Assembly: GCA_018433865.1 (NCBI GenBank)
Contig: JAHDQJ010000006.1
Span: 186,001 to 250,000, forward strand
Source: Spirochaetales bacterium
GTDB lineage: Bacteria; Spirochaetota; Spirochaetia; Sphaerochaetales; Sphaerochaetaceae
Reading direction: 5' to 3'
DNA: 64,000 bases
The stretch's first letter is position 1. Every line of letters starts with the position of its first letter. Below the pieces are notes generated by a model. It made no database searches, was not told the DNA's origin, and saw nothing but the letters and a program-made list of their open reading frames with translations. Of the stretch, positions 2,540-63,786 are shown one piece after another. Both the position numbers and the translations under genes were made by a program.

Positions 2540-2936
2540 AGGAAACTCCTCTTGAGCCCAGTATAGAGAGGACGTGCAAAGAACTGTAGTGACAAATGTA
2601 ATGATTTTCGTGGGCGATGTTTGGCCGACTGTGTGAAAAGGACAAAGTGTCCTTTACCCGAAGAAGACCGGATTCCTTGCTGAACTCGGTCCGCCATTTC
2701 TCTCACCCAACGATGCGGTCACCGAGCAAGAGCGTAAACGGATTGCCGAGCTGGTCCACAAGTGCGAGGGCCGTTGCCAAGCCATCTGTGCAAGGACATC
2801 GAGCAGCATCCTGTGATGGCATTGAACGCCAGATTGTTCACCAGGTAGGCAAGGAATGCTCTTCTCATGGTATCAATGATCTCCCGATCCCATCATACCA
2901 CGGAGAATCTCCGACGGCTTAAATTTTTTCAGGCCC
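2540..2936. other. Gene-poor stretch with possible decayed coding remnants
   Basis: About 400 nt between the exporter operon and a small secreted protein hold no convincing gene. One start-less reading on the plus strand (about 2648-2815) gives KKTGFLAELGPPFLSP followed by NDAVTEQERKRIAELVHKC, which has the composition of a real protein but lacks a start and ends at a TGA. On the minus strand a short reading begins MRRAFLAYLVNNLAFNAI near 2870. Both look more like decayed fragments than functional genes. The exporter promoter should lie in the first 60 nt (a TATACT box is visible on the minus strand), but no good -35 partner was found. Confidence 0.3.
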
Positions 2937-3446
2937 TCATCGTGAACGATATGCAAGTCCGAGCGCGATTTGTCCTGCGATCGGAAATGGCAAGTCGGTG
3001 TAGATCGGCCGGATATCCTCGGAGAGGTAGAATGATTGGTTCATCTCCGTCATCGCCATCGCATGCACGTGCTTCTCGCGATCGAGCGGAATGTACAGTC
3101 CGAATCCCAGGCAGGGGAGGATTTCGGCATCGAAATCACGTTCGATGTGAGCCGAGGGATGCAGGAGATAGGAGATGCCGAGGTGGATGAACAGGTCTTG
3201 GTACAGGTAGGTGCGTATGTCCGTCACCCCCATGACCTCCCCATGGGTGAATCCATACCCGATCCGCTGTGCCAGTCCGATGGCAACATGCTCCGAGAGG
3301 TCGAGCTTGATCCCCGCATCGGCCGAAAGGTACCAGGAGAAGAATCCTACACTGGCAGTGAGGCCTCCGTGTATGGTCGGCCTCGAGGCATGCAGTGAGC
3401 TGATAAGAAGGAGAAGGACTACAGTAATCGCGATCTTTCTTGCCAC
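2937..3446 (-). CDS. Small secreted, beta-barrel-like protein of unknown function
   Basis: A 169-residue protein with a signal peptide (basic VARKIA, hydrophobic TVVLLLLISSL, then HASRP) followed by a chain rich in alternating polar and hydrophobic residues, glycines and aromatics (GGLTASVGFFSWYLS, IGYGFTHGEV, LGFGLYIPLD), ending in LALGLAYRSR. This pattern fits a small outer-membrane beta barrel of the kind common in spirochaetes. The start chosen is GTG at 3444-3446, preceded 5 nt upstream by GGGAGG; a longer reading beginning at 3494 would run into the tRNA terminator and would hide the signal peptide. No family could be named and no enzymatic motif is visible. A terminator hairpin separates it from tRNA-Arg. 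Confidence 0.7.
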   Translation of the reverse strand: MARKIAITVVLLLLISSLHASRPTIHGGLTASVGFFSWYLSADAGIKLDLSEHVAIGLAQRIGYGFTHGEVMGVTDIRTYLYQDLFIHLGISYLLHPSAHIERDFDAEILPCLGFGLYIPLDREKHVHAMAMTEMNQSFYLSEDIRPIYTDLPFPIAGQIALGLAYRSR

Positions 3447-3628: not shown

Positions 3629-5710
3629 TCAGAACAACGAGACGGAAAGAAAGAGCGAAGCCATGATCGAAGAGACAAGCGATACTACAGTGATCTGTGT
3701 GTTCAGCGAAGGGCCCGCGGTATCCTTGAACGGATCTCCGACGGTGTCTCCGATGACTGCCGCCTTGTGTGCGTCCGATGCCCGGCCGCCGTGCTTGCCC
3801 GATTCGATGTATTTCTTGGCATTGTCCCACAATCCTCCGGCGTTCGACATGAAGAGTGCAAGCAACAGGCCGCTGATGATGTTTCCTGCAAGGAATCCTC
3901 CGATCGCCGTCACGCCTCCGATGAAGCCGACGGCAAGGGTAGCGAGTATCGCCATGAGACCTGCAGGAATCAACTCCCTGAGTGCGCCTACGGTTGCGAT
4001 GTTGATGCATGTCCGGTACTGAGGCATCACACCGGGACGCCCCTCCTTGAGTCCCGGGATCTCCTTGAATTGGCGGTGTATCTCCCGGACCATCCGTTGT
4101 GCGTTGCGATCGACTCCCATCATGAGCATCGCACTGAAGACTGCGGGTACGGCCGCCCCTGTCAGCAAGCCGAAAAAGACGTTCGGGTCCATGATGTCGA
4201 AACCGGTGATCATCCGGTCCTCAAGCCCGAGTTGTCGTGCAGCCGCATTGACCTCGGTCACGAACGCACCCAGCAGTGAGATGACGGTAAGACCCGCCGC
4301 CGCGATGGCGAATCCCTTGGTGATTGCCTTGACCGTATTGCCTGCGCTATCGAGCGCGTCTGTCACATCGAGTGCAGTCTCTCCCAAAGCTGCCATCTCA
4401 ACCAAGCCGCGGGCATTGTCGACGATCGGGCCGTATGCATCATTGCTGATGATCATGCCGACTATCGAGAGCATGCCCAATGCAGACATCGAGATGCCGA
4501 AGAATGGGTAGCCAGTTCCCAATGGAGCGCACAGAATGTAGGAACCCATTGCGGAGAGGGCGATTCCCACCATGCCAGGAAGCACGCTGAGCAGACCGTA
4601 GGACAATCCGCCAAGGATAGTGAAAGCAGGGCCGTTGCGCGAAGCGAGCGCTACTTGATGTACGGGACGCTTCGCATCGTTGGTGAAGTAGTCGCTTGCC
4701 AGTCCGATGACCGTTCCGACAGCGAGTCCGATGACGGTCGCTCCCCAAATTCTCCAGGGGAACGAGAACAGGATCGTGGCCAAGGCGCTGAGCAGGAGAT
4801 AGATCATGGTGGTCACATAGGTGCTGCTGTTGAGCGCATGTGAAGGATTCTCGTGACGCCCCATCCGCGCGGTTCCGACACCGATGATGGAGGCAAGCAG
4901 ACCGATGGTCGCATAACAGAGCACCATCATCGCATGCGTACCGACTATCCCGTTGTCCAGGGCGAGCGCCATCACGAGTGCCGCAGACATGGAAGCCACG
5001 TTCGAGTCGAAGAGGTCAGCCCCCATGCCCGCGACGTCACCGACGTTGTCTCCCACATTATCGGCTATCACGGCCGGATTGCGTGGGTCATCTTCGGGAA
5101 TGCCGAGCTCGACTTTACCCGTCAAGTCCGCACTGATGTCTGCGGTCTTGGTGAAGATGCCACCGCCCGCCTTTGCAAAGAGCGCAAGTGAGGAGGCTCC
5201 GAAGCTGAATCCCAAGAGCGTGGTGGCATCGCCGGTAAGCATCAGCAGGAGGGTGACTCCCAGGAGACTCGAACCGACTACGGCCATGCCCATCACTGCT
5301 CCACCGCGGAAGCCGGCGAGGAATGCAGGCCGGATTCCCACGGTTGCTGCCAACGCGGTTTTCCTGTTTGCAATCGTGGCAACCTGGATGCCCACCTTTC
5401 CTGCAAGTGCTGAAAAGCAGGTCCCAGCGATATATGCAAGCGCCATCACGACGTTCTCCCACCCTCCGGTCTTCCAGATGGGGTGGGGGATGCACAGAAG
5501 GATCAACGCCACCATGACCGTGCTGAAGCGTGCGAGTATGAGGTACTCGCGTCTCAGGAATGTGTTCGCTCCCTCGCAAATCAGCGAACCGATCATCTCG
5601 ATGCGATCATGCTTCACGCCCGGTTTCGCGACCCACGCGAACAACAGACCGGCTACGACAAAAGAGACCACCGAAACGGCAATCGCGGAGATTTCCATGA
5701 AGGTGACCAT
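3629..5710 (-). CDS. hppA: Membrane-bound ion-pumping pyrophosphatase
   Basis: This 693-residue protein hydrolyses pyrophosphate and couples this to ion export across the cytoplasmic membrane. It has about 16 membrane segments and the family's acidic catalytic motifs: DNVGDNVGDVAGMGADLFDS near residue 225, and IGDTVGDPFKDTAGPSLN near the C-terminus. At the position that separates potassium-dependent (Ala) from potassium-independent (Lys) enzymes it has GNTVKA, i.e. Lys, so it should be potassium-independent and more probably proton-pumping; the ion is inferred. The start MVTFMEIS at 5710 is preferred because AAGGAG lies 9 nt upstream; an ATG seven codons earlier has no ribosome site. It is a single-gene unit followed by tRNA-Arg. 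Confidence 0.95.
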   Translation of the reverse strand: MVTFMEISAIAVSVVSFVVAGLLFAWVAKPGVKHDRIEMIGSLICEGANTFLRREYLILARFSTVMVALILLCIPHPIWKTGGWENVVMALAYIAGTCFSALAGKVGIQVATIANRKTALAATVGIRPAFLAGFRGGAVMGMAVVGSSLLGVTLLLMLTGDATTLLGFSFGASSLALFAKAGGGIFTKTADISADLTGKVELGIPEDDPRNPAVIADNVGDNVGDVAGMGADLFDSNVASMSAALVMALALDNGIVGTHAMMVLCYATIGLLASIIGVGTARMGRHENPSHALNSSTYVTTMIYLLLSALATILFSFPWRIWGATVIGLAVGTVIGLASDYFTNDAKRPVHQVALASRNGPAFTILGGLSYGLLSVLPGMVGIALSAMGSYILCAPLGTGYPFFGISMSALGMLSIVGMIISNDAYGPIVDNARGLVEMAALGETALDVTDALDSAGNTVKAITKGFAIAAAGLTVISLLGAFVTEVNAAARQLGLEDRMITGFDIMDPNVFFGLLTGAAVPAVFSAMLMMGVDRNAQRMVREIHRQFKEIPGLKEGRPGVMPQYRTCINIATVGALRELIPAGLMAILATLAVGFIGGVTAIGGFLAGNIISGLLLALFMSNAGGLWDNAKKYIESGKHGGRASDAHKAAVIGDTVGDPFKDTAGPSLNTQITVVSLVSSIMASLFLSVSLF

Positions 5711-52514: not shown

Positions 52515-52565
52515 AGCGGCATGATTGTCGGATTCCTCGCGCGCGAATTCGGTGTAAGATGGGGC

Positions 52566-53018
52566 ATGGGAGATTTCTTGACGCCGCAGCGACGCAGTGC
52601 GATGATGGCACGGATTCGTGCGAAGGATACCAAGCCCGAACTGACTGTCAGGCAGTATTTGTTCCGGTGTGGATTCCGCTTCCGCATCCATGACAAGCGA
52701 CTCCCCGGGACTCCCGATATCGTGTTGCCCAAGTATCGGACGGTCATATTCGTCCACGGCTGTTTCTGGCATGGGCACCACGGATGTACCCACTTCCGCT
52801 TGCCCTCGTCGCATGTCGATTTCTGGAGAGCGAAGATACTGCGCAATCGGGAACGTGATCAAGAGCATCTCGACCGATTGGAAAGCCTCTCATGGCGTGT
52901 GATTGTCGTCTGGGAGTGTGAATTGCGGAACAAGAGCATCAGGGAGGCCACATTGCACGGATTGGTCAACGAAATCTGGGAAGTGCCACGTGATGCAAAC
53001 CGCAATCGTGGTGATTGA
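52566..53018 (+). CDS. vsr: Very short patch repair endonuclease
   Basis: A 150-residue endonuclease that nicks at T:G mismatches produced by deamination of 5-methylcytosine. LTPQRRSAMMARIRAKDTKPE (in part, residues 5-25), catalytic Asp 51 in LPGTPDIVLPKYRTVIFVHG, the zinc and active-site run CFWHGHHGC (66-74) and VDFWRAKILRNRERDQEHLD match Vsr closely. The ATG at 52566 (MGDFLTPQ) fits the normal N-terminus better than the one at 52521. No Dcm-type cytosine methyltransferase gene is adjacent or elsewhere in the window. Confidence 0.94.
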   Translation: MGDFLTPQRRSAMMARIRAKDTKPELTVRQYLFRCGFRFRIHDKRLPGTPDIVLPKYRTVIFVHGCFWHGHHGCTHFRLPSSHVDFWRAKILRNRERDQEHLDRLESLSWRVIVVWECELRNKSIREATLHGLVNEIWEVPRDANRNRGD

Positions 53019-53050
53019 CGCACCCAGGTCGAAATCAGTATCTATGGAGC

Positions 53051-54226
53051 ATGGAGAAGCCCGTCTCACGCATCGCATTCCTCAAGGATGTCCTGACGTG
53101 TTCGCTCGTTTCCTACGGAGGTCCTGAGGCTCATATCAGTGTATTCCTCGATATCCTCTCGGTGAAAAGAAGGTATCTGACCGAAGAGGAATTGATGGAA
53201 TTGGTCGCACTGTGCAGCATTCTGCCGGGTCCGACCAGCACACAGACGATCGTAGCGGTCGGACACAAGATCGGAGGACCGCAGCTCGCCTTGCTCACGA
53301 TGCTGGTGTGGGCCCTGCCGGCACTCATCGTGATGGGTACACTCTCATTCATGTCCCAGATCTTGGGTCTTTTCCAGGTATCCCAGGAGGTCCTGCGCTT
53401 CATCGGGCCGATGGCTGTAGGATTCATCATCCTCACTGCCTTCCGAATCGGCAAGAAGGTGGTCGTCGATCCCCTGAGCGCCTCATTGATGGTCCTCTCG
53501 TTGGTGGTCACGCTCTTCATCCGTTCCCCCTGGATCTTCCCCCTGGTCCTTTTGACCGGAGGAGCGATCTCCCTGCTCACCAGCGGTGAGAAGGATCTGT
53601 TCAACCGCGTGACGGTGCGACCGCCGTGGATATATCTCATCATGTTCATCGCGATCGCATTGATCCTTCTGGTGGGTACGTTCGCGATCGATCGGAGGAT
53701 CATCCATCTTGCAGAGAGTTTTTATCGCTATGGGTACCTTGTCTTCGGAGGAGGGCAGGTCGTCGTTCCGGTGATGCATAGCGAGCTGGTGGGGACTCAC
53801 CAGTACATGACAGACATGGAATTCCTTACCGGCTACGGATTGGTCCAGGGCCTTCCCGGTCCGATGTTCAGTTTTGCCGCTTATGCCGGCGGCATGGCCG
53901 CACGGGACATGGGATGGCCGGTTCAGGTTGCCGGAGCGATCGCCGGCGGGATGGGCATCTTCCTGCCCGGTACGCTTCTGATCTTCTTCGTCTATCCTGT
54001 GTGGGAACAACTGAAACGGATACGTGCGATCAAGGTTGCCCTGAAAGGGATCGCTGCGGTGGCTGGGGGCATGATCGCTGCCGCTGCAGTCGTACTGCTG
54101 AGGACGAGCGGCCTTGAACCGATCAATCTTGCGGTGAGTGCGATTTCCGTAATCCTGCTCGCATCGCGGAAAGTACCTGCCCCGCTGATCGTACTGCTGG
54201 CTTTGGTCGCGGGTATCCTTCTCTGA
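53051..54226 (+). CDS. chrA: Chromate-transporter (CHR) family protein
   Basis: A 391-residue protein made of two homologous halves of about six spans each, the long form of the CHR family. The N-half signature is SLVSYGGPEAHISVFLDILS and CSILPGPTSTQTIVAVGHKI; the C-half has YLVFGGGQVVVPVMHSELVG and GYGLVQGLPGPMFSFAAYAG. It may export chromate or another oxyanion. The start is uncertain: ATG 53051 (MEKPVSR) or the TTG at 53015 that overlaps the vsr stop. It lies immediately after vsr. Confidence 0.88.
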   Translation: MEKPVSRIAFLKDVLTCSLVSYGGPEAHISVFLDILSVKRRYLTEEELMELVALCSILPGPTSTQTIVAVGHKIGGPQLALLTMLVWALPALIVMGTLSFMSQILGLFQVSQEVLRFIGPMAVGFIILTAFRIGKKVVVDPLSASLMVLSLVVTLFIRSPWIFPLVLLTGGAISLLTSGEKDLFNRVTVRPPWIYLIMFIAIALILLVGTFAIDRRIIHLAESFYRYGYLVFGGGQVVVPVMHSELVGTHQYMTDMEFLTGYGLVQGLPGPMFSFAAYAGGMAARDMGWPVQVAGAIAGGMGIFLPGTLLIFFVYPVWEQLKRIRAIKVALKGIAAVAGGMIAAAAVVLLRTSGLEPINLAVSAISVILLASRKVPAPLIVLLALVAGILL

Positions 54227-54921: not shown

Positions 54922-55632
54922 ATGAACCGTCCACAACCGAAACCAAGTCTCCGCCTCGATGGGACCTATCGAGCACTCCTTGTAGCGGGTGCCGTCAGCG
55001 CACTGACCATGGTATGTTTCATGATCATCCAGATAGCGGTGTTTTCAGCATGGCCGCCTCCGACCGATGTCGAAGGGATGTTCTCGCTGTTCCGGGACAA
55101 TTGGTTTTTGGGCCTCTTGAGCATGGACTTGCTGTATATTGTCGACAGTGTCTTGTTGATCATCATCTATCTTGCGATGTACCGGACACTGCAGGAGTAT
55201 GCTCCTGCGGCCATGTTGGTCGGTACTGTCCTGGCGATCGTCGGGGTGGGAGGCTATTTTGCATCAAATACCGCATTCGAGATGTTTTCGTTGGCCCGTC
55301 AACATGCACTTGCTGCGGACATGGAGCAGAAACGCCTGTATGTTGCAGCTGGGATGGGCATGATGGCGACCTATAGTGGAACCTCTTTCAACGTATACTA
55401 CGTGTTGAACACCATCATCCTCTTCATCTATGTGTTCGTGATGCGACGCGCGGGTATATACGGGAAAGCGATTCCCCGTTATACATTGGCCGCGGGTCTG
55501 CTCATGATCATTCCCTCATCAGTCGGCATGATCGGCATGATATTCTCACTCGCATCGCTCGTGCCGTGGGCAATCTGGTTGGTACTGGTCGCACGACGGT
55601 TGCTCAGCTTCGTGCGAACCGGGCCCGCATGA
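54922..55632 (+). CDS. Membrane protein, DUF4386-like
   Basis: A 236-residue protein with six to seven membrane segments. The order of segments and the blocks LLSMDLLYIVDSVLLIIIYL and LARQHALAADMEQKRLYVAA resemble DUF4386-type membrane proteins, a group of unknown function. The ATG follows GAGGAGGTTCCCCG. Its end overlaps the convergent acetyltransferase gene by 29 nt. Confidence 0.65.
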   Translation: MNRPQPKPSLRLDGTYRALLVAGAVSALTMVCFMIIQIAVFSAWPPPTDVEGMFSLFRDNWFLGLLSMDLLYIVDSVLLIIIYLAMYRTLQEYAPAAMLVGTVLAIVGVGGYFASNTAFEMFSLARQHALAADMEQKRLYVAAGMGMMATYSGTSFNVYYVLNTIILFIYVFVMRRAGIYGKAIPRYTLAAGLLMIIPSSVGMIGMIFSLASLVPWAIWLVLVARRLLSFVRTGPA

Positions 55633-56137
55633 TGATGCCCTCTGCCGCATCGGGAAAGCAACAGGGGATCCGCTGTACTTCGGTGAAGCCCCACTGTCGG
55701 TAGATTTCCCTCGCAGCGGTCCACTGGTCGGATACGAGGAGGATTGCCGACTCGACAGTGCAAGTCCTGTGCATATGGTCCATCGCGAGGAAAAAGGCCT
55801 GCTTTCCCCGAAGTTCATTCCGGTACGATCCATCCAGTGCGAAGCTGGAGATATACAGGTCCGTCCCATCCCGATCGAAAAACCGCGTGATGTCATGGGA
55901 AAGACGGAATCTCTCGACATCGTATTCCCTTTCATGGCGCCACAGTTCGCTGCAGAAGAATCCGATCAACAAACCGTTGAAAAAGAATCCGAGATTTCCC
56001 TGCGGGAAGGTTTCGATCCTGCGCCGGTAGACCCCGGCATCCTCACACACCTTTTCATGGAAGCTGAGGCGTTCGATCTGCATGATGCGTTCGCTATGGG
56101 AAATCTCCAATGGATGCAACACGATGGACATGGCCAA
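55604..56137 (-). CDS. GNAT-family acetyltransferase
   Basis: A 177-residue protein with a degenerate GNAT fold: an N-terminal strand-helix (IVLHPLEISHSERIMQIERL), central strands (NLGFFFNGLLIGFFCSELWR; DLYISSFALDGSYRNELRGK, where the acetyl-CoA loop R/QxxGxG/A is replaced by RNELRGKQ) and the C-terminal AAREIYRQWGFTEVQRIPCC. The substrate is unknown. ATG at 56137 or 56131. Tail-to-tail overlap with the upstream membrane protein gene. Confidence 0.7.
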   Translation of the reverse strand: MAMSIVLHPLEISHSERIMQIERLSFHEKVCEDAGVYRRRIETFPQGNLGFFFNGLLIGFFCSELWRHEREYDVERFRLSHDITRFFDRDGTDLYISSFALDGSYRNELRGKQAFFLAMDHMHRTCTVESAILLVSDQWTAAREIYRQWGFTEVQRIPCCFPDAAEGIIMRARFARS

Positions 56138-56222: not shown

Positions 56223-56251
56223 TGAAACCATTGCCCCGTTCATGCGTATAA
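56223..56251 (+). promoter_or_regulatory. Candidate ECF-dependent promoter before the sigma gene
   Basis: TGAAAC (56223-56228) and CGTATAA (56245-56251) are separated by 16 nt, the layout of ECF sigma promoters (AAC-type -35, CGT-type -10). The same motif pair with the same spacing recurs at 56928-56955. It lies 34 nt before the sigma start codon. Confidence 0.65.
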
Positions 56252-56284
56252 CAAAGAGAATACTCTGTATCAGGCGGTAATTCG

Positions 56285-56926
56285 GTGGACGAGAAATCGC
56301 GATACTCCCAGTCTCGTGAACCCATGAAGCCAGGCTCCTGTGATGAGTCCGAGACAGTGAGGTCGATCCTGCATGGGGATACCGAGTCCTTCCGGAGGAT
56401 CGTGGAATCCTACACCCCACCATTTCATGGACTCGCAAAGCGAATGCTGCCCGATCGTTCACCCGAGAATATCGAGGATGCCTTGCAGGAGATTTTCCTC
56501 CTTATGTTCAAAGCACTGCCTCGCTACGATCAGGAAAGACCGTTTTTCACCTGGGCTTATACGATCGCCTTGAACTACTTCCGATCACGGATACGGAAGG
56601 GCAAGCGCACCGCCAAGCACCTTGCGAGTATTCCGTATGATGAAGATATCGGTGTCTTGCAGGGAAACGGACATCAGTACCAGCCTGAGGATGCATTGAT
56701 TGCTTCGGAAGCTGATCGCATCCTTGACCAGGCGATCCGTTCCTTGAAGCCGAAGTACCGAGAGGTGTTCATACTCAGGCAGTTGCAGGATATGTCCGTC
56801 ACCGATACCGCCCGGACTCTGCACATTCCGGAAGGCACGGTCAAGACACTGCTGTTTCGCGCAAGACAGCAGCTGAGGCGATTCCTTTCCGATCGTACCT
56901 GGATTTCGGGAGATTGGGAATCTTGA
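56285..56926 (+). CDS. ECF-type RNA polymerase sigma factor
   Basis: A 213-residue sigma-70 family protein lacking regions 1 and 3. Region 2 spans about 40-110 (FRRIVESYTPPFHGLAKRML, ENIEDALQEIFLLMFKALPR, RPFFTWAYTIALNYFRSRIR) and region 4 about 150-205 (LKPKYREVFILRQLQDMSVT, RTLHIPEGTVKTLLFRARQQ). The start is GTG at 56285 with AGGCGG upstream; ATG at 56324 is possible. The next gene encodes a zinc anti-sigma factor, and candidate ECF promoters precede both, suggesting positive autoregulation. Confidence 0.92.
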   Translation: MDEKSRYSQSREPMKPGSCDESETVRSILHGDTESFRRIVESYTPPFHGLAKRMLPDRSPENIEDALQEIFLLMFKALPRYDQERPFFTWAYTIALNYFRSRIRKGKRTAKHLASIPYDEDIGVLQGNGHQYQPEDALIASEADRILDQAIRSLKPKYREVFILRQLQDMSVTDTARTLHIPEGTVKTLLFRARQQLRRFLSDRTWISGDWES

Positions 56927-56927
56927 A

Positions 56928-56955
56928 TGAAACGGATGCTTGTCACCCGCGTATA
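56928..56955 (+). promoter_or_regulatory. Second candidate ECF promoter, before the anti-sigma gene
   Basis: TGAAAC (56928-56933) and CGTATA (56950-56955), again with a 16-nt spacer. It overlaps the stop region of the sigma gene and precedes the anti-sigma start by about 30 nt, so the downstream genes could be induced separately from the sigma gene. Confidence 0.6.
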
Positions 56956-56986
56956 TATTGGGTGATGGGCAGGAGGAAGAGATGTG

Positions 56987-57643
56987 ATGGACTGCAATGA
57001 ATGCAAGGCATGTATCGACCGCTGGCTTGACGCATGCTTGTCGGGAGAATGGACTGATGGTCCGGACCATCACCTGGATCGACGGATCTCCGACCATCTC
57101 TCCCGGTGTCCCGACTGCAAGTTGCATCTGGAACTGGCCGAACGCATCGCCGGAACGTCGATTCGGAAGGAATCGACTTCACCTGAGCTGGTCCGACGTG
57201 TTTCAGACTCGGTTCTTGTGCGCATACAGGAAGAACAGCGATTCTCCCAGGCCCGTACCCACCGGGGATCGCATGTGCAGAAGTATCTGGTGGTGGCGGC
57301 TGCGCTGGTGATGATCACCCTTCCGCTTCTCAAGAAAGGAGATGGAGGGTTTGTGCAGGGCAAGGATCCCGGGACCGATCTTGCACAGGTCATCTTGCGA
57401 TTGGACGCTCCTCAAGCCGAGCAGGTTGTGGTTGTCGGAGATTGGAATGATTGGGAGGTGGGTGCCCAACGTCTCGCGAAGAGTGAGAATGACAGGACTT
57501 GGAGCATCGAGATGGAATTGGAACGAGGTAAGGAATACCGTTACCAGTTCGTGATCGATGGAGAACGGTGGATCGCCGATCCGAATGCCTACATGCAAGT
57601 GGATGATGGATTCGGAGGCGTGAACTCCCTATTGGAGATGTAG
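56987..57643 (+). CDS. Zinc anti-sigma factor with membrane span and glycogen-binding-like (CBM48) domain
   Basis: A 218-residue three-part protein. Residues about 1-55 form a zinc anti-sigma domain with the H-x3-C-x2-C motif (DHLSRCPDCKLHL). One hydrophobic segment (YLVVAAALVMITLPLL, near 100-116) anchors it in the cytoplasmic membrane. Residues about 133-218 match the AMPK-beta/isoamylase early-set fold: VVVVGDWNDWEVGAQRL, WSIEMELERGKEYRYQFVID, GERWIADPNAY. The orientation implied puts that domain outside. It should hold the ECF sigma inactive until a carbohydrate or other signal is met; the ligand is inferred. Start: ATG 56987, or GTG 56984 which is better spaced from AGGAGG. Confidence 0.85.
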   Translation: MDCNECKACIDRWLDACLSGEWTDGPDHHLDRRISDHLSRCPDCKLHLELAERIAGTSIRKESTSPELVRRVSDSVLVRIQEEQRFSQARTHRGSHVQKYLVVAAALVMITLPLLKKGDGGFVQGKDPGTDLAQVILRLDAPQAEQVVVVGDWNDWEVGAQRLAKSENDRTWSIEMELERGKEYRYQFVIDGERWIADPNAYMQVDDGFGGVNSLLEM

Positions 57644-57653
57644 GAGAAATCAG

Positions 57654-58259
57654 ATGAAACAGGTAATCGCATTGGTCTTGGTCTTGGTGTTGACCATGGG
57701 GATACTTGCCGCGGAAGTGGCGCTTTCGGAAGAGGATACTGTGTTCTTGGAAGAACTGGCCTTTCAGCTGCGAAACCGCGGATGGGATGAAGAGGAACTG
57801 GCCCCGCTCATGGAGCAGGCCCGTCATATGCGGTGGGATGAGGCTCCTGTCGCAGATCCTGCGGTGATTGCTTTCGCACTGCACTATGGCACTTCTGATG
57901 AGGAAGGAAGTCCCGGCGAATTGGCGACCATGCGGGCGCGGTTGGCTTTGGAACTGGCATTCTCCACCGAGGAGATGAAACGGTTGGGGTATGGAGTCCA
58001 GGCGATAGCACAAGGTTCCGCATTGGGTTTGGCGGAGGCTGTAGCACAATTGCGAGCTGAGAAAAAGTCTCTTGGTGATGATGCTCCCGGTACACAGGTG
58101 CGTACTATGGTGCGGGAGAAAATTTCCCAACAGGTTGCATTGCGTCAGAAAGCAACCGATAGGGTAGGTTTGGGATCGATGAAACAGATCCAGGTCAAGG
58201 GGAGACCGGATTTCGCCGGATCGTCGAATCGTCCTGCTTCTGCAGGTCCCGCGAGATAG
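57654..58259 (+). CDS. Exported protein of unknown function in the ECF operon
   Basis: A 201-residue protein with a signal peptide (MKQVIALVLVLVLTMGILAA). The mature part is acidic and alpha-helical (EVALSEEDTVFLEELAFQLR, RARLALELAFSTEEMKRLGY) and ends in a basic, Gly/Pro-rich tail (RPDFAGSSNRPASAGPAR). No family recognised. ATG follows GTAGGAGAAATCAG. It lies 10 nt after the anti-sigma gene and so belongs to the same unit. It could be a periplasmic partner or target of the ECF system. Confidence 0.7.
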   Translation: MKQVIALVLVLVLTMGILAAEVALSEEDTVFLEELAFQLRNRGWDEEELAPLMEQARHMRWDEAPVADPAVIAFALHYGTSDEEGSPGELATMRARLALELAFSTEEMKRLGYGVQAIAQGSALGLAEAVAQLRAEKKSLGDDAPGTQVRTMVREKISQQVALRQKATDRVGLGSMKQIQVKGRPDFAGSSNRPASAGPAR

Positions 58260-58274
58260 CAGGAAAGGAAGCGT

Positions 58275-58982
58275 GTGGTGTTGATGAAGCGGTTACAAGC
58301 CAAACCTCTTCTCGTTATACTGTGGGTCCTGTCAGCGAGCTTGCTCGCTGGCGGGACCTGGTCCGATCGTGTGCAACAGAGCATGGATTCGATTCACATG
58401 CAGGAACCCGACCGCCAACAAGTGAAGCATATATTCAGCCTTGCCGAAGCGGAACAACTCCCCTTGGCGCCACTTGAGCTCAAGTTGAACGAAGGCGTGG
58501 CAAAGAGAGTCGATACCTCCTTGTTGATCGATGCACTTCATCAGCAGATGGATATGTATGCGAAGGTGCGTTCTCTGCTGCAAGCTGCCTTCGGCATGCA
58601 GGAAACCGAAGCGATCCTTGGTATCCGGACAGTGTGGGATCGTACGGTCCTGCTGCATCAACAAGGTGTGGGTGAAGACGACTTGGTCACCTTGCTCATG
58701 AATTTCAGGCAACAAGGCAGCGAGGATCGGTGGAACAACTTCCGGTATGGGGGAGGGCTGTTGCTTGCGCTGAGACAATGGGGTCTCTCGGAAGAAGATT
58801 CCCTATCCGTCGTCGTGGCGTTGTCCCGGTCTCGGATGGCAGGGGGCGACTACCCCAGGGTGTTGGACCTGCTCAACAACGCGATTCTCCAGCGCATCAG
58901 CCTGGAGGATATGGTGAAGAGAATCATCGAAAGCGCACCGAAAAGCCGTTCCTTCACGGTGTTGGAACGCATGGTGCGATAG
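58275..58982 (+). CDS. Exported helical protein of unknown function in the ECF operon
   Basis: A protein of about 235 residues (GTG at 58275; ATG 58284 is an alternative) with an N-terminal hydrophobic export signal (LLVILWVLSASLLAGGTWSD). The rest is helical with repeated 40-residue units of leucine-rich character (DRQQVKHIFSLAEAEQLPLA, LLLALRQWGLSEEDSLSVVV, NNAILQRISLEDMVKRIIES). It shares size, topology and charge style with the preceding exported protein, suggesting a related role. No family was recognised. It lies 15 nt downstream of the previous gene. Confidence 0.68.
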   Translation: MVLMKRLQAKPLLVILWVLSASLLAGGTWSDRVQQSMDSIHMQEPDRQQVKHIFSLAEAEQLPLAPLELKLNEGVAKRVDTSLLIDALHQQMDMYAKVRSLLQAAFGMQETEAILGIRTVWDRTVLLHQQGVGEDDLVTLLMNFRQQGSEDRWNNFRYGGGLLLALRQWGLSEEDSLSVVVALSRSRMAGGDYPRVLDLLNNAILQRISLEDMVKRIIESAPKSRSFTVLERMVR

Positions 58983-58996
58983 CAAGGAGCGTCTGT

Positions 58997-59935
58997 ATGT
59001 ATCTTGGAAAATCATGGGTGATCCTGTTGTTGCTGTGTGTCGGGATCTTGGGCCAGCTTCCTGCGGGTCAGACTGATGCATTCGTCGGAATTTCCGGATC
59101 GTACCGTTATGCCGAAGATCCCTCATTCCCGGTGCGCGGGGCTACCGTGGACATGCAGGGAAACCTCGGGCACAGGATGCTCTTGGGAGAAACCGGATTT
59201 CTCGGTTTTTCCCTCTACGGTACCGTATCACTCGACCCGGCAACGTACTCAGTCTCTGACCATTTGCTTGCTGGGATCACGAATTCGTGGTTTTTCGATG
59301 TAGGAGTGATGGAATTTGCTGTTGAGGTTGATCAATCCTTTTTCGGTTCGGAAGGTGGCGGCGCCTTCACAGTTCCCTCATGGAGCGCTTCGTACGGGTG
59401 GGAGCGCGGGTATCGGACGATCAATCCCTTCGTACAGTACAGAGGGTCCGCCACAAGCGGAGGTTCCCAGCATGGTCTTGAGCTCGGGTTCTCGTACAGT
59501 CCCTCCGTAGAACTCACCTACTCAACGACTGTCGGTGGAACGTATGCAACCTCCTTGCCCGACTTTCTCGCTACGATTGCGTTCGGAGCCGAAGGTCTGG
59601 TGGGGTATCTCTTCAATTGGGAATTTGGCGCGGAGGCTGCATATCGGTTCGCCGAGGATCCGACGGACGAATCCCTTTCCTTGCGGGCTTCCGCCCTGTT
59701 CGGCTACACTCCCTCACGTCGCATGCACATCCGGTTCTCTCCCGCGTTGGCCGCCACGCGAGAGCGTGCATCCGGAGCATGGACCATCGATGGGGAAGCA
59801 CTCCTTCGCGCAGATGTCGCGATCAAGGGCAACCTCTATTGGTATGTGGAGACAGGAGCGTTCTCGAGCTTGGTACAAGACACGGTTCCTACATGGTATG
59901 TCCAGGTACGTACGGGAGTGGATGTGAGCTTCTGA
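58997..59935 (+). CDS. Predicted outer-membrane beta-barrel protein in the ECF operon
   Basis: A 312-residue protein with a signal peptide (MYLGKSWVILLLLCVGILGQ) followed by alternating short beta-type segments with Gly and aromatic residues (DAFVGISGSYRYAEDPSF, GLELGFSYSPSVELTYSTT, WEFGAEAAYRFAEDP) and a terminal strand ending in Phe (TWYVQVRTGVDVSF), the usual barrel ending. It is probably an outer-membrane protein whose level is set by the ECF sigma. The ATG at 58997 follows AAGGAGCGTCTGT; a longer frame from 58730 lies inside the previous gene. Confidence 0.75.
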   Translation: MYLGKSWVILLLLCVGILGQLPAGQTDAFVGISGSYRYAEDPSFPVRGATVDMQGNLGHRMLLGETGFLGFSLYGTVSLDPATYSVSDHLLAGITNSWFFDVGVMEFAVEVDQSFFGSEGGGAFTVPSWSASYGWERGYRTINPFVQYRGSATSGGSQHGLELGFSYSPSVELTYSTTVGGTYATSLPDFLATIAFGAEGLVGYLFNWEFGAEAAYRFAEDPTDESLSLRASALFGYTPSRRMHIRFSPALAATRERASGAWTIDGEALLRADVAIKGNLYWYVETGAFSSLVQDTVPTWYVQVRTGVDVSF

Positions 59936-59948
59936 ACGATTCAGCACA

Positions 59949-61136
59949 TCAGCTGACTACTGTTCCGTACACCATCCCGGCAAGGGTGGAGCATGCCACC
60001 ACCAAGACGACATATGCAGAGGTCTTCTTGATTCCCAACTCTCCGGCTATGATCAGGATCGAGGGAAGCGAAAGACTCGGACCGGCAAGCAGGAGTGCCA
60101 GTGCAGGCCCTTCTCCCATTCCCGCCCCAAGCAACCCCTGGACGATCGGAATTTCCGTGAGGGTGGCAAAGTACATGAAAGCACCCGCCACCGAAGCGAA
60201 GAAATTGGCAAGGAGAGAATTCCCTCCTACCAGGGAAGCGATCCACTGGGAGGGAATCAATGCCTCCTCTCCCGGTCTTCCGAGCAGGAAACCGGCAATC
60301 AGCACTCCGGCGAACAGGAGAGGAAGGGTTTGCAGGGCAAAATCCCGGGTGGAAGAACCCCACTCTTGCAGATCTTCCTTGGTAAACCACCTGACCAATG
60401 CATACACGAGCAAGAGTGCGAATACTCCGGTGATCCCATACTTCGCTCGATAGAGGAAGTCCCAGCCGGTGCTCGTTCCGCTAGACGGAGCCCAATTGAG
60501 GAATACCAGGATACCGATCATCGAAGCCATGAACAGGCTTGTCTGCCCGAGAGTACGGGTTCCGGATTCTCCCGGGTCCTTGAACAGCCGTTCATCGGAA
60601 AGCCTTTTCTCATCTTCTTTCCTGAAAAGTGCCTGCATGATCAAACCTATCAGGATGGCTATGATTATCGAAGCGACCATCCTGGTCATTCCGAGCTTCC
60701 AGCCGAACACCTTGTAGGAGAGAATGATCGCCAGGATATTGATCGCCGGTCCGGAATAGAGGAATGAGACCGCAGGCCCGAGTCCCGCACCCTTCTTGTA
60801 GATACCCTTGAACAGCGGCAAGACCGTACAGGAACACACAGCGAGTATGGCACCGGAAACCGATGCGACCGAATAGGCGACCAGCTTGTTGGCTTTTGGC
60901 CCGAGATACTTCATCACCGCTTGCCGATTGAGGAATACGACCACCGCACCGGCGATGAAAAGAGCAGGGACCACGCATAGCAGTACGTGTTCATGGGCAT
61001 AGTCGGAGAGCATGAGGAATGCCTCCCGTATCGCTCCTGTGACGCGTGGATGGGAAAACGGGATGAAGAATGCTGCAAGGAACACTCCTGCGACGACCAA
61101 GAGCTTCTTGTTTTCCGAAAGTTGTTTCATCGCCAT
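59949..61136 (-). CDS. ArsP/UPF0718-type permease
   Basis: A 395-residue membrane protein with about ten spans of the permease family that includes ArsP (organoarsenical efflux). The conserved block SGAILAVCSCTVLPLFKGIYKKGAGLGPAVSFLYSGPAINI (quoted in parts: AVCSCTVLPLFKGIYKKGAG) near residues 90-130 carries the paired cysteines typical of the family, repeated in weaker form in the second half. It lies beside a thioredoxin-like protein, an ArsR-ArsC fusion and ACR3, so arsenic export is likely. Start at 61136 (MAMKQLS), AAGGTG upstream. Confidence 0.85.
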   Translation of the reverse strand: MAMKQLSENKKLLVVAGVFLAAFFIPFSHPRVTGAIREAFLMLSDYAHEHVLLCVVPALFIAGAVVVFLNRQAVMKYLGPKANKLVAYSVASVSGAILAVCSCTVLPLFKGIYKKGAGLGPAVSFLYSGPAINILAIILSYKVFGWKLGMTRMVASIIIAILIGLIMQALFRKEDEKRLSDERLFKDPGESGTRTLGQTSLFMASMIGILVFLNWAPSSGTSTGWDFLYRAKYGITGVFALLLVYALVRWFTKEDLQEWGSSTRDFALQTLPLLFAGVLIAGFLLGRPGEEALIPSQWIASLVGGNSLLANFFASVAGAFMYFATLTEIPIVQGLLGAGMGEGPALALLLAGPSLSLPSILIIAGELGIKKTSAYVVLVVACSTLAGMVYGTVVS

Positions 61137-61181
61137 GACATCACCTTGTTGCCGGTTGTGTGGCATGCATGCCTGCCAACA

Positions 61182-61421
61182 TCAGTTGGCGGCAAGGATA
61201 ATTGCTACTATCTGGTCTCTGGTGAGCAGTTTGCCGGAACTTTTCACCTCGCCGTCGATAGCCAAGGCGGGAGTGATCATGACTCCCATGTCCATGATCC
61301 GATCGATGTCATCGATCTTCTCGACAATCGCATCGATGGCAGTCTCCGCAATGGCCTGCCTGGCGTTTGCCTCGAGGGCTTTGCATTTGGGACATCCGGT
61401 CCCGAGAATCTGTATGCGCAT
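61182..61421 (-). CDS. Small thioredoxin-like (redox-active disulfide) protein
   Basis: A 79-residue protein. MRIQILGTGCPKCKALEANA places CPKC at residues 10-13, followed by a thioredoxin half-fold and the cis-Pro region GVMITPALAIDGEVKSSGKL. Such small proteins commonly sit next to UPF0718/ArsP permeases. It could reduce the permease, the ArsC fusion or arsenicals. ATG at 61421 follows GGAGGCACCTC; the longer frame to 61496 would pass through the operator. Confidence 0.88.
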   Translation of the reverse strand: MRIQILGTGCPKCKALEANARQAIAETAIDAIVEKIDDIDRIMDMGVMITPALAIDGEVKSSGKLLTRDQIVAIILAAN

Positions 61422-61436
61422 GAGGTGCCTCCATGA

Positions 61437-61506
61437 GTTTCCATTATTGGAAACTGTTCCGGACGTGTCAAGCGAAACGATTGACAAAGTTTCCAATTAT
61501 TGCAAC
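61437..61506. promoter_or_regulatory. ArsR operators and divergent promoter region
   Basis: GTTTCC-ATTATT-GGAAAC (61437-61454) is an 18-bp inverted repeat. GTTTCCAATTATTGCAAC (61489-61506) is an imperfect second copy. On the minus strand TTGACA (complement of 61466-61471), 17-nt spacer and AATAAT (complement of 61443-61448) form the promoter of the thioredoxin-permease genes, its -10 box buried in the first repeat. A rightward TTGACA is at 61481-61486 but lacks a clear -10. Both units should be repressed by the fused ArsR. Confidence 0.7.
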
Positions 61507-61515
61507 CTTTCTCTC

Positions 61516-62271
61516 ATGGATAGGAAGCGATACGAAGAATCGGCAAAGATGCTGCGGGCCCTTGGCCACCCGATGCGGCTGGCGATGGTCGAAGCGTTGA
61601 GGAAGCGATCGTGGTGCGTATGCGAGCTCGCTGCGATCTTGGGCTTGGGCAAGTCTGCCGCATCAAAACACCTGTCTTCATTGAGACAAGTGGGCGTCAT
61701 CCGCATGGAACGTCAGGGAACCCAGGTCATCTGCACCCTTGCCATGCCCTGTGTCGTCGATATGATGGCGTGTTCCATCGATCGGCAGGGCCGGAGTTCC
61801 GAGGAAATACAGGACTGTTGTTCCGTTGAGAAGGAGATTTCCATGGTATCAAGCCAACGTATCATGTTTGTGTGCATCCATAACTCGGCACGGAGCCAGA
61901 TGTGCGAAGCGTTCGTTCGGCACTTTGCAGCCGATAGGTTCGAAGTCCATAGCAGTGGTATCGAATCCGGCAAGCTCAACCCGCTTGTCGTCCAGGCAAT
62001 GGCTGAGATAGGCCTATCCATGGAAGGGCACCATGCAAAACGGGCGCAAGAGTATATTGACCGCAAGGAAGAATTCGACTATGTGGTTACGGTCTGTGAT
62101 GAAAGCAGCGCAGAGCGGTGCCCGATGTTTCCCGGCAAGCACCAGCGCTTGCACTGGGGTTTCCCCGACCCGAGTGCGATCCAAGGAACCGATGAGGAGA
62201 AGTTGGTTGGCATTCGGGTGATCCGGGATGCGATCAAGACCAAGGTTGAGTCCTGGCTCGATCAGACCTGA
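61516..62271 (+). CDS. ArsR regulator fused to arsenate reductase (LMW-phosphatase type ArsC)
   Basis: A 251-residue fusion. Residues about 5-85 form an ArsR winged helix (ALGHPMRLAMVEALRKRSWC, VCELAAILGLGKSAASKHLS), with Cys 34 and Cys 36 as possible metalloid ligands. Residues about 113-251 form an ArsC of the low-molecular-weight phosphatase fold: P-loop VCIHNSARSQMCEAF (Cys 120, Arg), the cysteines of VTVCDESSAERCPMFPG (Cys 194, Cys 202) and catalytic Asp in GFPDPS. It thus senses arsenic and reduces arsenate in one chain. The region 85-112 is a linker with a CC pair. Start at 61516 (MDRKRYEES), no strong ribosome site. Confidence 0.92.
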   Translation: MDRKRYEESAKMLRALGHPMRLAMVEALRKRSWCVCELAAILGLGKSAASKHLSSLRQVGVIRMERQGTQVICTLAMPCVVDMMACSIDRQGRSSEEIQDCCSVEKEISMVSSQRIMFVCIHNSARSQMCEAFVRHFAADRFEVHSSGIESGKLNPLVVQAMAEIGLSMEGHHAKRAQEYIDRKEEFDYVVTVCDESSAERCPMFPGKHQRLHWGFPDPSAIQGTDEEKLVGIRVIRDAIKTKVESWLDQT

Positions 62272-62712
62272 TCTTCGGATGTGGTGCCACTCTTTCTTTG
62301 ATACAGTGGATGCTGTCGCGATGATCGAGAGTATCCGGTCTGTCGGAGGCGCGTTTCATGGAGCGCAAGAGAACGGTTGGGATGGCAAGCCTCATGCAAG
62401 TGAGGGTGCTGGGACTCGGATGCATGGCATCGGATTGCACGCAGAACCACTGTGTGAGTGCGAGATCCTCGCAACCCCGACATCGGGGTACCCTTTGAGG
62501 ATGCTTGGTGAACGTTCATGGGGTGACTTTCGACGGGAAGGCAGGGGCATGCACCCGTCGCCCGATCTCTCGAATCACCACAGGTTGCTGGCGTGCCTGA
62601 TGCACGTGTCCGGACCGGGAAACAGACCTGGGTCGATCATGGGAAAGGATGTGCGCATGGCCGAAAGATATCGGAGTGCTGATACGGTATCAGTAAGACC
62701 CGGAGGTAAGAT
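62272..62712. other. Spacer between arsR-arsC fusion and arsenite pump, with a small cysteine-bearing reading
   Basis: This 441-nt stretch lacks a convincing gene. At 62394-62498 a 34-residue reading starts MQVRVLGLGCMASDCTQNHC, whose first ten residues recall the start of the small thioredoxin-like protein (MRIQILGTGC), but the active site is not CxxC and no ribosome site is seen; it may be a decayed copy. A short inverted repeat (ACCCCGA...CGGGGT, near 62474-62489) follows. A longer reading at 62228-62767 overlaps both neighbours and looks random. The ACR3 ribosome site is CCGGAGGTAAG. Confidence 0.3.
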
Positions 62713-63786
62713 ATGGGAAAGAAATCCGGCACGAGACAGGGTATGGGGTTCTTTGAGCGGTATCTGACACTGTGGGTGCTTCTCTGCATGGCTATCGGGG
62801 TGTTGATCGGCGTGTATCTGCCGCAAATTCCCGGATTCCTCTCGCGTTTCGAGTATGCGAATGTTTCCATTCCCGTTGCGGTCCTCATCTGGCTCATGAT
62901 CTACCCGATGATGCTCAAGGTAGATTTTCACAGCATCCGACAGGTAGGGCAGAATCCTCGTGGCCTGATCATCACGTGGATTACGAATTGGTTGATCAAA
63001 CCGTTCACCATGTATGCGATCGCGATGTTTTTCTTTTATGTCGTGTATCGTTCGATCATCCCCAAGGATCTTGCGAGACAGTATCTTGCCGGCGCGGTGC
63101 TGTTGGGAGCTGCTCCGTGTACTGCCATGGTCTTCGTATGGAGCCATCTCACCAAAGGGAATCCTGCCTATACCTTGGTACAGGTTGCTACGAACGACCT
63201 CATCATCCTTGCTGCATTCGTGCCGATCGTGGCACTGTTGTTGGGCATCTCCGGTATTTCGATACCGTGGATGACGCTTTTCCTCTCTGTCGTCCTCTTC
63301 GTGGTCATTCCTCTCGGTGCAGGGTGGTTTTCCCGTGTGATCATCACGAGAAAACGTGGATCGGACTATTTCGAACAGACATTCATTCCGAAGTTCTCAC
63401 AAGTCACCATCACCGGACTGTTGCTCACGCTCATCATCATATTCTCATTCCAGGGACAGACCATCGTGGACAATCCCTTGAACATCGTCCTCATCGCGAT
63501 TCCTTTGGTCATACAGACTTTCCTCATCTTTTTCGTGGCATACCTCTGGGCAAAGGCCTGGAAACTCCCGCATGAGATCGCAGCACCCGCAGGGATGATC
63601 GGGGCTTCGAACTTCTTTGAGCTGGCAGTGGCAGTCGCCATCTCTGTGTTCGGCTTGAGTTCTCCTGCAACAGTCACGACAGTCGTGGGCGTATTGGTGG
63701 AAGTTCCGGTCATGCTTACCTTGGTCAAGATTGCCAACAGTACCTTCCATTGGTTCAAGGAGCATCCTGAACCAACAACCCTGTAG
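62713..63786 (+). CDS. Arsenite efflux pump of the ACR3 family
   Basis: A 357-residue membrane protein with ten spans. The ACR3 signature is complete: LIWLMIYPMMLKVDF (near 58-72), NPRGLIITWITNWLIKPFTM, and the catalytic Cys 136 in LLGAAPCTAMVFVWSHLTKG, then VATNDLIILAAFVPIV and the C-terminal IGASNFFELAVAVAISVFG with the conserved Glu. It expels arsenite produced by the ArsC fusion. The ATG follows GGAGGTAAGAT. It ends 78 nt before a PadR-type gene whose leader contains a 36-bp palindrome that may also terminate this transcript. Confidence 0.95.
   Translation: MGKKSGTRQGMGFFERYLTLWVLLCMAIGVLIGVYLPQIPGFLSRFEYANVSIPVAVLIWLMIYPMMLKVDFHSIRQVGQNPRGLIITWITNWLIKPFTMYAIAMFFFYVVYRSIIPKDLARQYLAGAVLLGAAPCTAMVFVWSHLTKGNPAYTLVQVATNDLIILAAFVPIVALLLGISGISIPWMTLFLSVVLFVVIPLGAGWFSRVIITRKRGSDYFEQTFIPKFSQVTITGLLLTLIIIFSFQGQTIVDNPLNIVLIAIPLVIQTFLIFFVAYLWAKAWKLPHEIAAPAGMIGASNFFELAVAVAISVFGLSSPATVTTVVGVLVEVPVMLTLVKIANSTFHWFKEHPEPTTL

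Follow-up and report, generated by a model that had tools for sequence, protein, structure and literature searches.

An ECF sigma factor module of Spirochaetia whose zinc anti-sigma factor carries a CBM48 domain predicted to face outward

Anti-sigma factors that sense through an outward-facing carbohydrate-binding module (CBM) are already known from RsgI (PMC4711584) and from ECF52 proteins (PMC8999054, PMC5826349). Here we describe a five-gene module on the plus strand (56285–59935) of a 64,000-nucleotide stretch of Spirochaetales DNA (contig JAHDQJ010000006.1, positions 186,001 to 250,000), which is called the window below. The module encodes an extracytoplasmic function (ECF) sigma factor, a zinc anti-sigma factor with a CBM48 domain, two exported proteins designated X1 and X2, and a barrel-like protein. 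It is real and conserved, and apparently undescribed in the literature searched. We consider it somewhat probable that the module is a self-contained signalling system, in which the periplasmic CBM48 would sense a glycan and thereby switch the module's own promoters.

RsgI of Clostridium thermocellum resembles this anti-sigma factor in its outward C-terminal CBM, and its sigma factor also reads its own promoter. On the other hand, its N-terminal domain is not a zinc domain, its sigma factor is of SigI type rather than ECF, its host is Gram-positive, its CBMs belong to other families, and its targets are cellulosomal carbohydrate-active enzymes (CAZymes) (PMC4711584). Among the window proteins, the RsgI N-terminal anti-sigma domain has no Pfam match at E ≤ 1; on the predicted topology, the CBM lies C-terminal and outside the membrane, as in RsgI-type sensors. 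ECF52, for example SCO4117 of Streptomyces coelicolor, likewise combines an ECF sigma factor, a zinc anti-sigma domain, a membrane helix and an outer carbohydrate-binding domain, but in one fused actinobacterial polypeptide, whereas here two separate genes are found (PMC8999054, PMC5826349).

SigW/RpoE-type ECF factors with membrane anti-sigma factors share the operon layout, autoregulation and a TGAAAC-type −35 element, and differ in their target genes. To our knowledge, none of their known anti-sigma factors carries CBM48, and we know of no X1, X2 or barrel genes associated with ECF52. The fold and a tryptophan pair (W100/W133) are shared with the glycogen-binding domains of AMPK-beta/SNF1-beta and with plant PTST, which differ in being cytoplasmic or plastid proteins rather than transcription regulators and from which the module departs at Lys126.

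The literature searched describes no anti-sigma factor with a glycogen-binding, CBM48 or AMPK1_CBM domain; it does not cover the 2021 ECF reclassification, where an ECF group number may exist. An initial annotation of the locus knew of no pathway with this layout. This stands for the layout but not for the principle, since RsgI and ECF52 are known. What is new here is the gene order shared by many Spirochaetia genera, the sigma promoter motif, the cross-phylum CBM48 pairs with X2, and an X2 fold without a PDB match.

The sigma/anti-sigma pair and its CBM48 domain

The sigma protein matches Sigma70_r2 (54 bits) and Sigma70_r4_2 (65 bits) in Pfam, as well as TIGR02937 (sigma70-ECF, 108.6 bits), and is partially similar to SigW models. 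It has regions 2 and 4, lacks region 3 and adjoins an anti-sigma gene, as expected of an ECF factor, and an ECF-type promoter before its own gene is consistent at the sequence level with autoregulation.

The anti-sigma protein, whose gene has an alternative GTG start at 56984, was initially annotated as a zinc protein with one membrane span, and this is borne out. The triad H37-x3-C41-x2-C44 lies within a helical N-terminal domain next to an ECF gene, as in zinc anti-sigma (ZAS) factors, and is kept in 25 of 27 homologues. PF13490 (zf-HC2) matches four of these 27 class members; in Pfam it was not matched in the window's own protein. There is a single hydrophobic span (residues 99–115, hydropathy 2.11). 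The AlphaFold model, built with the 27 homologues, places cytoplasmic-type helices at 3–18, 32–40, 42–57 and 66–92, a membrane helix at 97–115, then a flexible linker and CBM48. Lysine and arginine are richer on the N side of the span in 26/27 homologues. The protein is thus predicted to be oriented N-in/C-out, with CBM48 outside the inner membrane; a cytoplasmic location, checked by prediction, was not obtained, and the outward-facing domain of the initial annotation gains further support from exported CBM48 proteins encoded in related operons (see below).

In Pfam, the C-terminus scores 36 bits against AMPK1_CBM (cut-off 26.8) and 34.6 bits against CBM_48 (cut-off 22.4). No stretch of the protein is better conserved than CBM48, which is matched in all 27 homologues. 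A PDB sequence search returned an alpha-amylase carrying CBM48, and AMPK-beta. The domain is modelled with high confidence (pLDDT about 96), and its best Foldseek match is AMPK-beta (4cfe, E 4.5e-7, rmsd 1.4), followed among top matches by SNF1-beta, a plant glucan phosphatase and branching enzymes. Pfam, AlphaFold and Foldseek therefore agree with the early-set/CBM48 fold first proposed.

Residue equivalences with AMPK were read from the PDB sequence-search alignment. W156 and W195 (AMPK W100 and W133) are invariant in 27/27 homologues, and the L146 position is occupied by F209, phenylalanine in 27/27. In AMPK, the equivalent tryptophans stack on glucose units, among the glucan contacts listed (PMC9788615), and plant PTST depends on the corresponding pair to bind starch (PMC4339375). 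The domain probably senses an extracytoplasmic glycan.

Conservation, promoters and predicted targets

In about 30 inspected loci from many genera of Spirochaetia, an ECF gene and a gene for a CBM48 anti-sigma factor lie side by side; X2 comes next in most of them, X1 is present in about 20, and the barrel can be identified from its sequence in the nearest relatives (L014–L018). Because the order recurs in many genera, the arrangement is not due to chance; with domains above the Pfam cut-offs, the module is confirmed with the five genes initially listed, which lie 10 to 60 bases apart. A class-wide scan gave some match in 121 of 395 genomes, which is not the module frequency because many matches are stand-alone CBM48 domains or enzymes.

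Outside the phylum, our statements refer to the matches listed. An ECF gene followed by a CBM48 anti-sigma-like gene occurs in Gemmatimonadota, Nitrospirota, Myxococcota, Deltaproteobacteria, Eisenbacteria and Salinivenus. These anti-sigma-like proteins mostly lack the zinc motif and keep CBM48, in which the aromatic set is largely kept and the two tryptophans are found in 15/15 and 14/15 homologues. An X2 relative comes next, often together with an exported barrel-like protein that ends in CBM48 (in Gemmatimonadota and others). Such exported proteins support an extracytoplasmic role of CBM48 in those operons. In a Nitrospira locus, a short lipoprotein-like protein consisting of a signal stretch and one CBM48 stands in the barrel's place (L056:2806-3192).

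A common TGAAACC...CGTATA pattern was spotted in the upstream regions of module loci. In the host genome of 2.9 Mb, TGAAAC-N15-17-CGTATA has two copies, both within the module. Across the class, 12 of 27 loci have the looser TGAAAC-N15-17-NGTATA before the ECF gene and 12 of 34 have it before the anti-sigma gene, compared with 0.01 in single-base shuffles; these loci are related, though their spacer sequences differ. Across 13 module-bearing genomes, TGAAACC-N14-16-CGTATA gave 22 matches, 10 of them in the module, against one for the reversed control, and five genomes without an anti-sigma match gave none. The sigma factor hence has a recognisable promoter, TGAAAC-N16-CGTATA, and from the sequence pattern we infer that it is used. 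Because one-mismatch matches in the window's own genome equal the reversed-pattern control (8 versus 8), we propose no additional targets in it. A similar motif was not found before the ECF genes in other phyla.

Outside the module, the predicted targets in related genomes are X1 paralogues (G110, G051), DUF4382 lipoproteins (G001, G002) and small exported proteins. DUF4382 genes also lie divergent to the ECF gene, behind the motif, in L030 and L036, making these lipoproteins a candidate second target of the sigma family in module-bearing spirochaetes; PF14321 (DUF4382) has no match in the window's own genome. A variant, TGCAACC-N15-17-GTATA, occurs in L036, L037, L039 and L040, partly facing the divergent DUF4382 gene, and suggests a shift in sigma specificity. 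The initial proposal that the module sets outer-membrane composition fits the predicted targets, namely the module's own exported genes, X1 paralogues and DUF4382 lipoproteins.

Two side observations concern the same motif. DUF4382 lipoprotein genes lie behind it or a related one at L145–L147, L030 (~2838–3060) and L036 (~2830–3007). A candidate promoter at 5412–5439 of L169 (G125:C81), possibly there by chance, is found ~160 bases before a gene whose exported product resembles GH11 xylanases and weakly matches CBM60.

X1, X2, the barrel-like protein and neighbouring genes

X1 and X2 both begin with signal-peptide-like stretches. Of the two helical exported proteins initially annotated, X2 is supported by an all-helical model (pLDDT 94.6, pTM 0.83), and X1, as an exported protein, by its signal-peptide-like start. 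X1 has no Pfam match over the cut-off. X2 has no PDB fold match in Foldseek at E ≤ 0.001, and the window protein belongs to no Pfam family, 28 X2 members giving scattered matches (best E 0.0025).

The last protein contains 14 alternating, beta-barrel-like segments, compared with 7.0 in shuffles, and a roughly twofold excess is also seen in its closest relatives, which supports the barrel-like call from the sequence; its C-terminus is -GVDVSF. Pfam gave no match and a PDB profile search found nothing. An upstream start in a 401-aa open reading frame was rejected in favour of 58997 (312 aa). No homology with the CBM48-bearing barrels of other phyla was detectable (hhalign probability 0.1%). In another spirochaete, a 674-aa barrel-like protein has a CBM48-like stretch (L021:7652-9676), with no ECF match nearby.

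Table 1 Features of the module and its flanks in window coordinates.
Feature	Coordinates	Strand	Basis or remark
GNAT-like gene	55604–56137	−	flanks the module on the sigma side
Predicted promoter 1, TGAAAC-N16-CGTATA	56223–56250	+	exact match, before the sigma gene
ECF sigma factor, 213 aa, GTG start	56285–56926	+	Pfam, TIGR02937
Predicted promoter 2, TGAAAC-N16-CGTATA	56928–56955	+	exact match, between sigma and anti-sigma genes
Zinc anti-sigma factor with C-terminal CBM48, 218 aa	56987–57643	+	Pfam, alignment, AlphaFold model, Foldseek
Predicted cytoplasmic anti-sigma domain, residues 1–92	56987–57262	+	modelled helices; zinc ligands H37, C41, C44
Transmembrane helix, residues 99–115	57281–57331	+	hydropathy 2.11; modelled helix 97–115
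Predicted extracytoplasmic CBM48/AMPK-beta-like domain, residues 131–218	57377–57640	+	Pfam, AlphaFold, Foldseek
X1, exported, 201 aa, no known family	57654–58259	+	signal-peptide-like start; adjoins the anti-sigma gene elsewhere in Spirochaetia
X2, exported, all-helical, 235 aa, no known family	58275–58982	+	signal-peptide-like start; model
Barrel-like exported protein, 312 aa	58997–59935	+	alternating segments; C-terminal -GVDVSF
ArsP-type permease gene	59949–61166	−	flanks the module on the barrel side

Beyond the barrel-like gene lies an arsenic-type cluster (59949–63786) with the ArsP-type permease, a thioredoxin-like protein and an SBF/ACR3-type transporter, as well as one open frame joining an ArsR-type regulator with a low-molecular-weight phosphatase (arsenate reductase type) domain. 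At 52521–54226, a Vsr mismatch endonuclease gene overlaps a chromate transporter gene.

What the CBM48 domain may sense

We conceive the switch as follows. The N-terminal zinc domain would hold the sigma factor at the inner membrane, presumably by direct binding, while the periplasmic CBM48 would use a two-tryptophan face like that of AMPK-beta to sense a glycan, most likely a polymer or oligosaccharide resembling an alpha-glucan. When ligand occupancy changes, sigma may be freed by intramembrane proteolysis or by conformational change. The genome encodes a site-2 protease family member, which does not discriminate because most bacteria have one. Freed sigma would read both promoters, so that sigma amplifies itself, the inhibitor is restored, and X1, X2 and the barrel-like protein are expressed. 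Ligand sensing is the most economical account because the tryptophans are invariant and RsgI and ECF52 offer precedents.

Several findings weigh against glycan sensing. The likeness to the AMPK glycogen-binding residues holds for the fold and for W100/W133, but Lys126 is replaced (Q in 18 and N in 9 of the 27 homologues) and N150 is kept in only 19/27; therefore the ligand or the affinity may differ, and we infer alpha-glucan sensing with this qualification. CBM48 is often a structural domain. No CAZyme or sugar transporter is found inside the module, sugar genes are a minority among the predicted targets, unlike in RsgI regulons, and the other alpha-glucan proteins in the genome (GH13-type enzymes) lie elsewhere, with no link to the module seen. 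Roughly half of the class loci lack the strict promoter motif.

Some of these findings fit the main rival, an envelope-stress response rather than a sugar sensor, in which the beta-sandwich of CBM48 has been co-opted to bind another protein: X2, the barrel or a mislocalised outer-membrane protein. The exported and barrel proteins and paralogues among the targets would suit it, as would a promoter like envelope-stress (SigW-like) promoters, the partial similarity of sigma to SigW models, and the presence of X2 after the pair in several phyla. Yet a scaffold alone needs no exposed tryptophans, and these are kept in all 27 class homologues and nearly all of those listed from other phyla; we regard a protein partner as unlikely, though still to be reckoned with. 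ZAS factors can respond to oxidation, and the frequency of the zinc motif in the class would agree with a mainly redox or zinc sensor whose outer domain is incidental. That is quite improbable, as two class members and most other-phyla homologues have no recognisable zinc motif while retaining CBM48, the part that is conserved most. We give hardly any credence to a cytoplasmic CBM48 reading the cell's own glycogen: stand-alone and branching-enzyme CBM48 domains are cytoplasmic and the genome has GH13 enzymes, but sigma can be held only by a zinc domain on the cytoplasmic side, and one span separates this domain from CBM48, on top of the N-side positive charge and the exported CBM48 proteins. 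Cytoplasmic sensing is rejected on this predicted topology.

A regulated envelope module, as initially read, is supported by the structure, the charge distribution and the related operons. More tentatively, the glycan-sensing module may belong to a hitherto undescribed cross-phylum class of Gram-negative sensors, in which outward-CBM48 ECF pairs control X2, a new exported helical family, and, in Gemmatimonadota and others, a CBM48 barrel. Sensor and product could then vie for a single envelope glycan or pass it from one to the other.

If the glycan-sensing reading is true, CBM48, a glycogen/starch domain, serves about six bacterial phyla, spirochaetes among them, as the outward sensor of an ECF switch. 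The module would be a small testable system with one sensor, two strong predicted promoters and few targets. Its promoter motif lets targets be listed in related genomes, and X2 represents a widespread exported family without a known fold relative.
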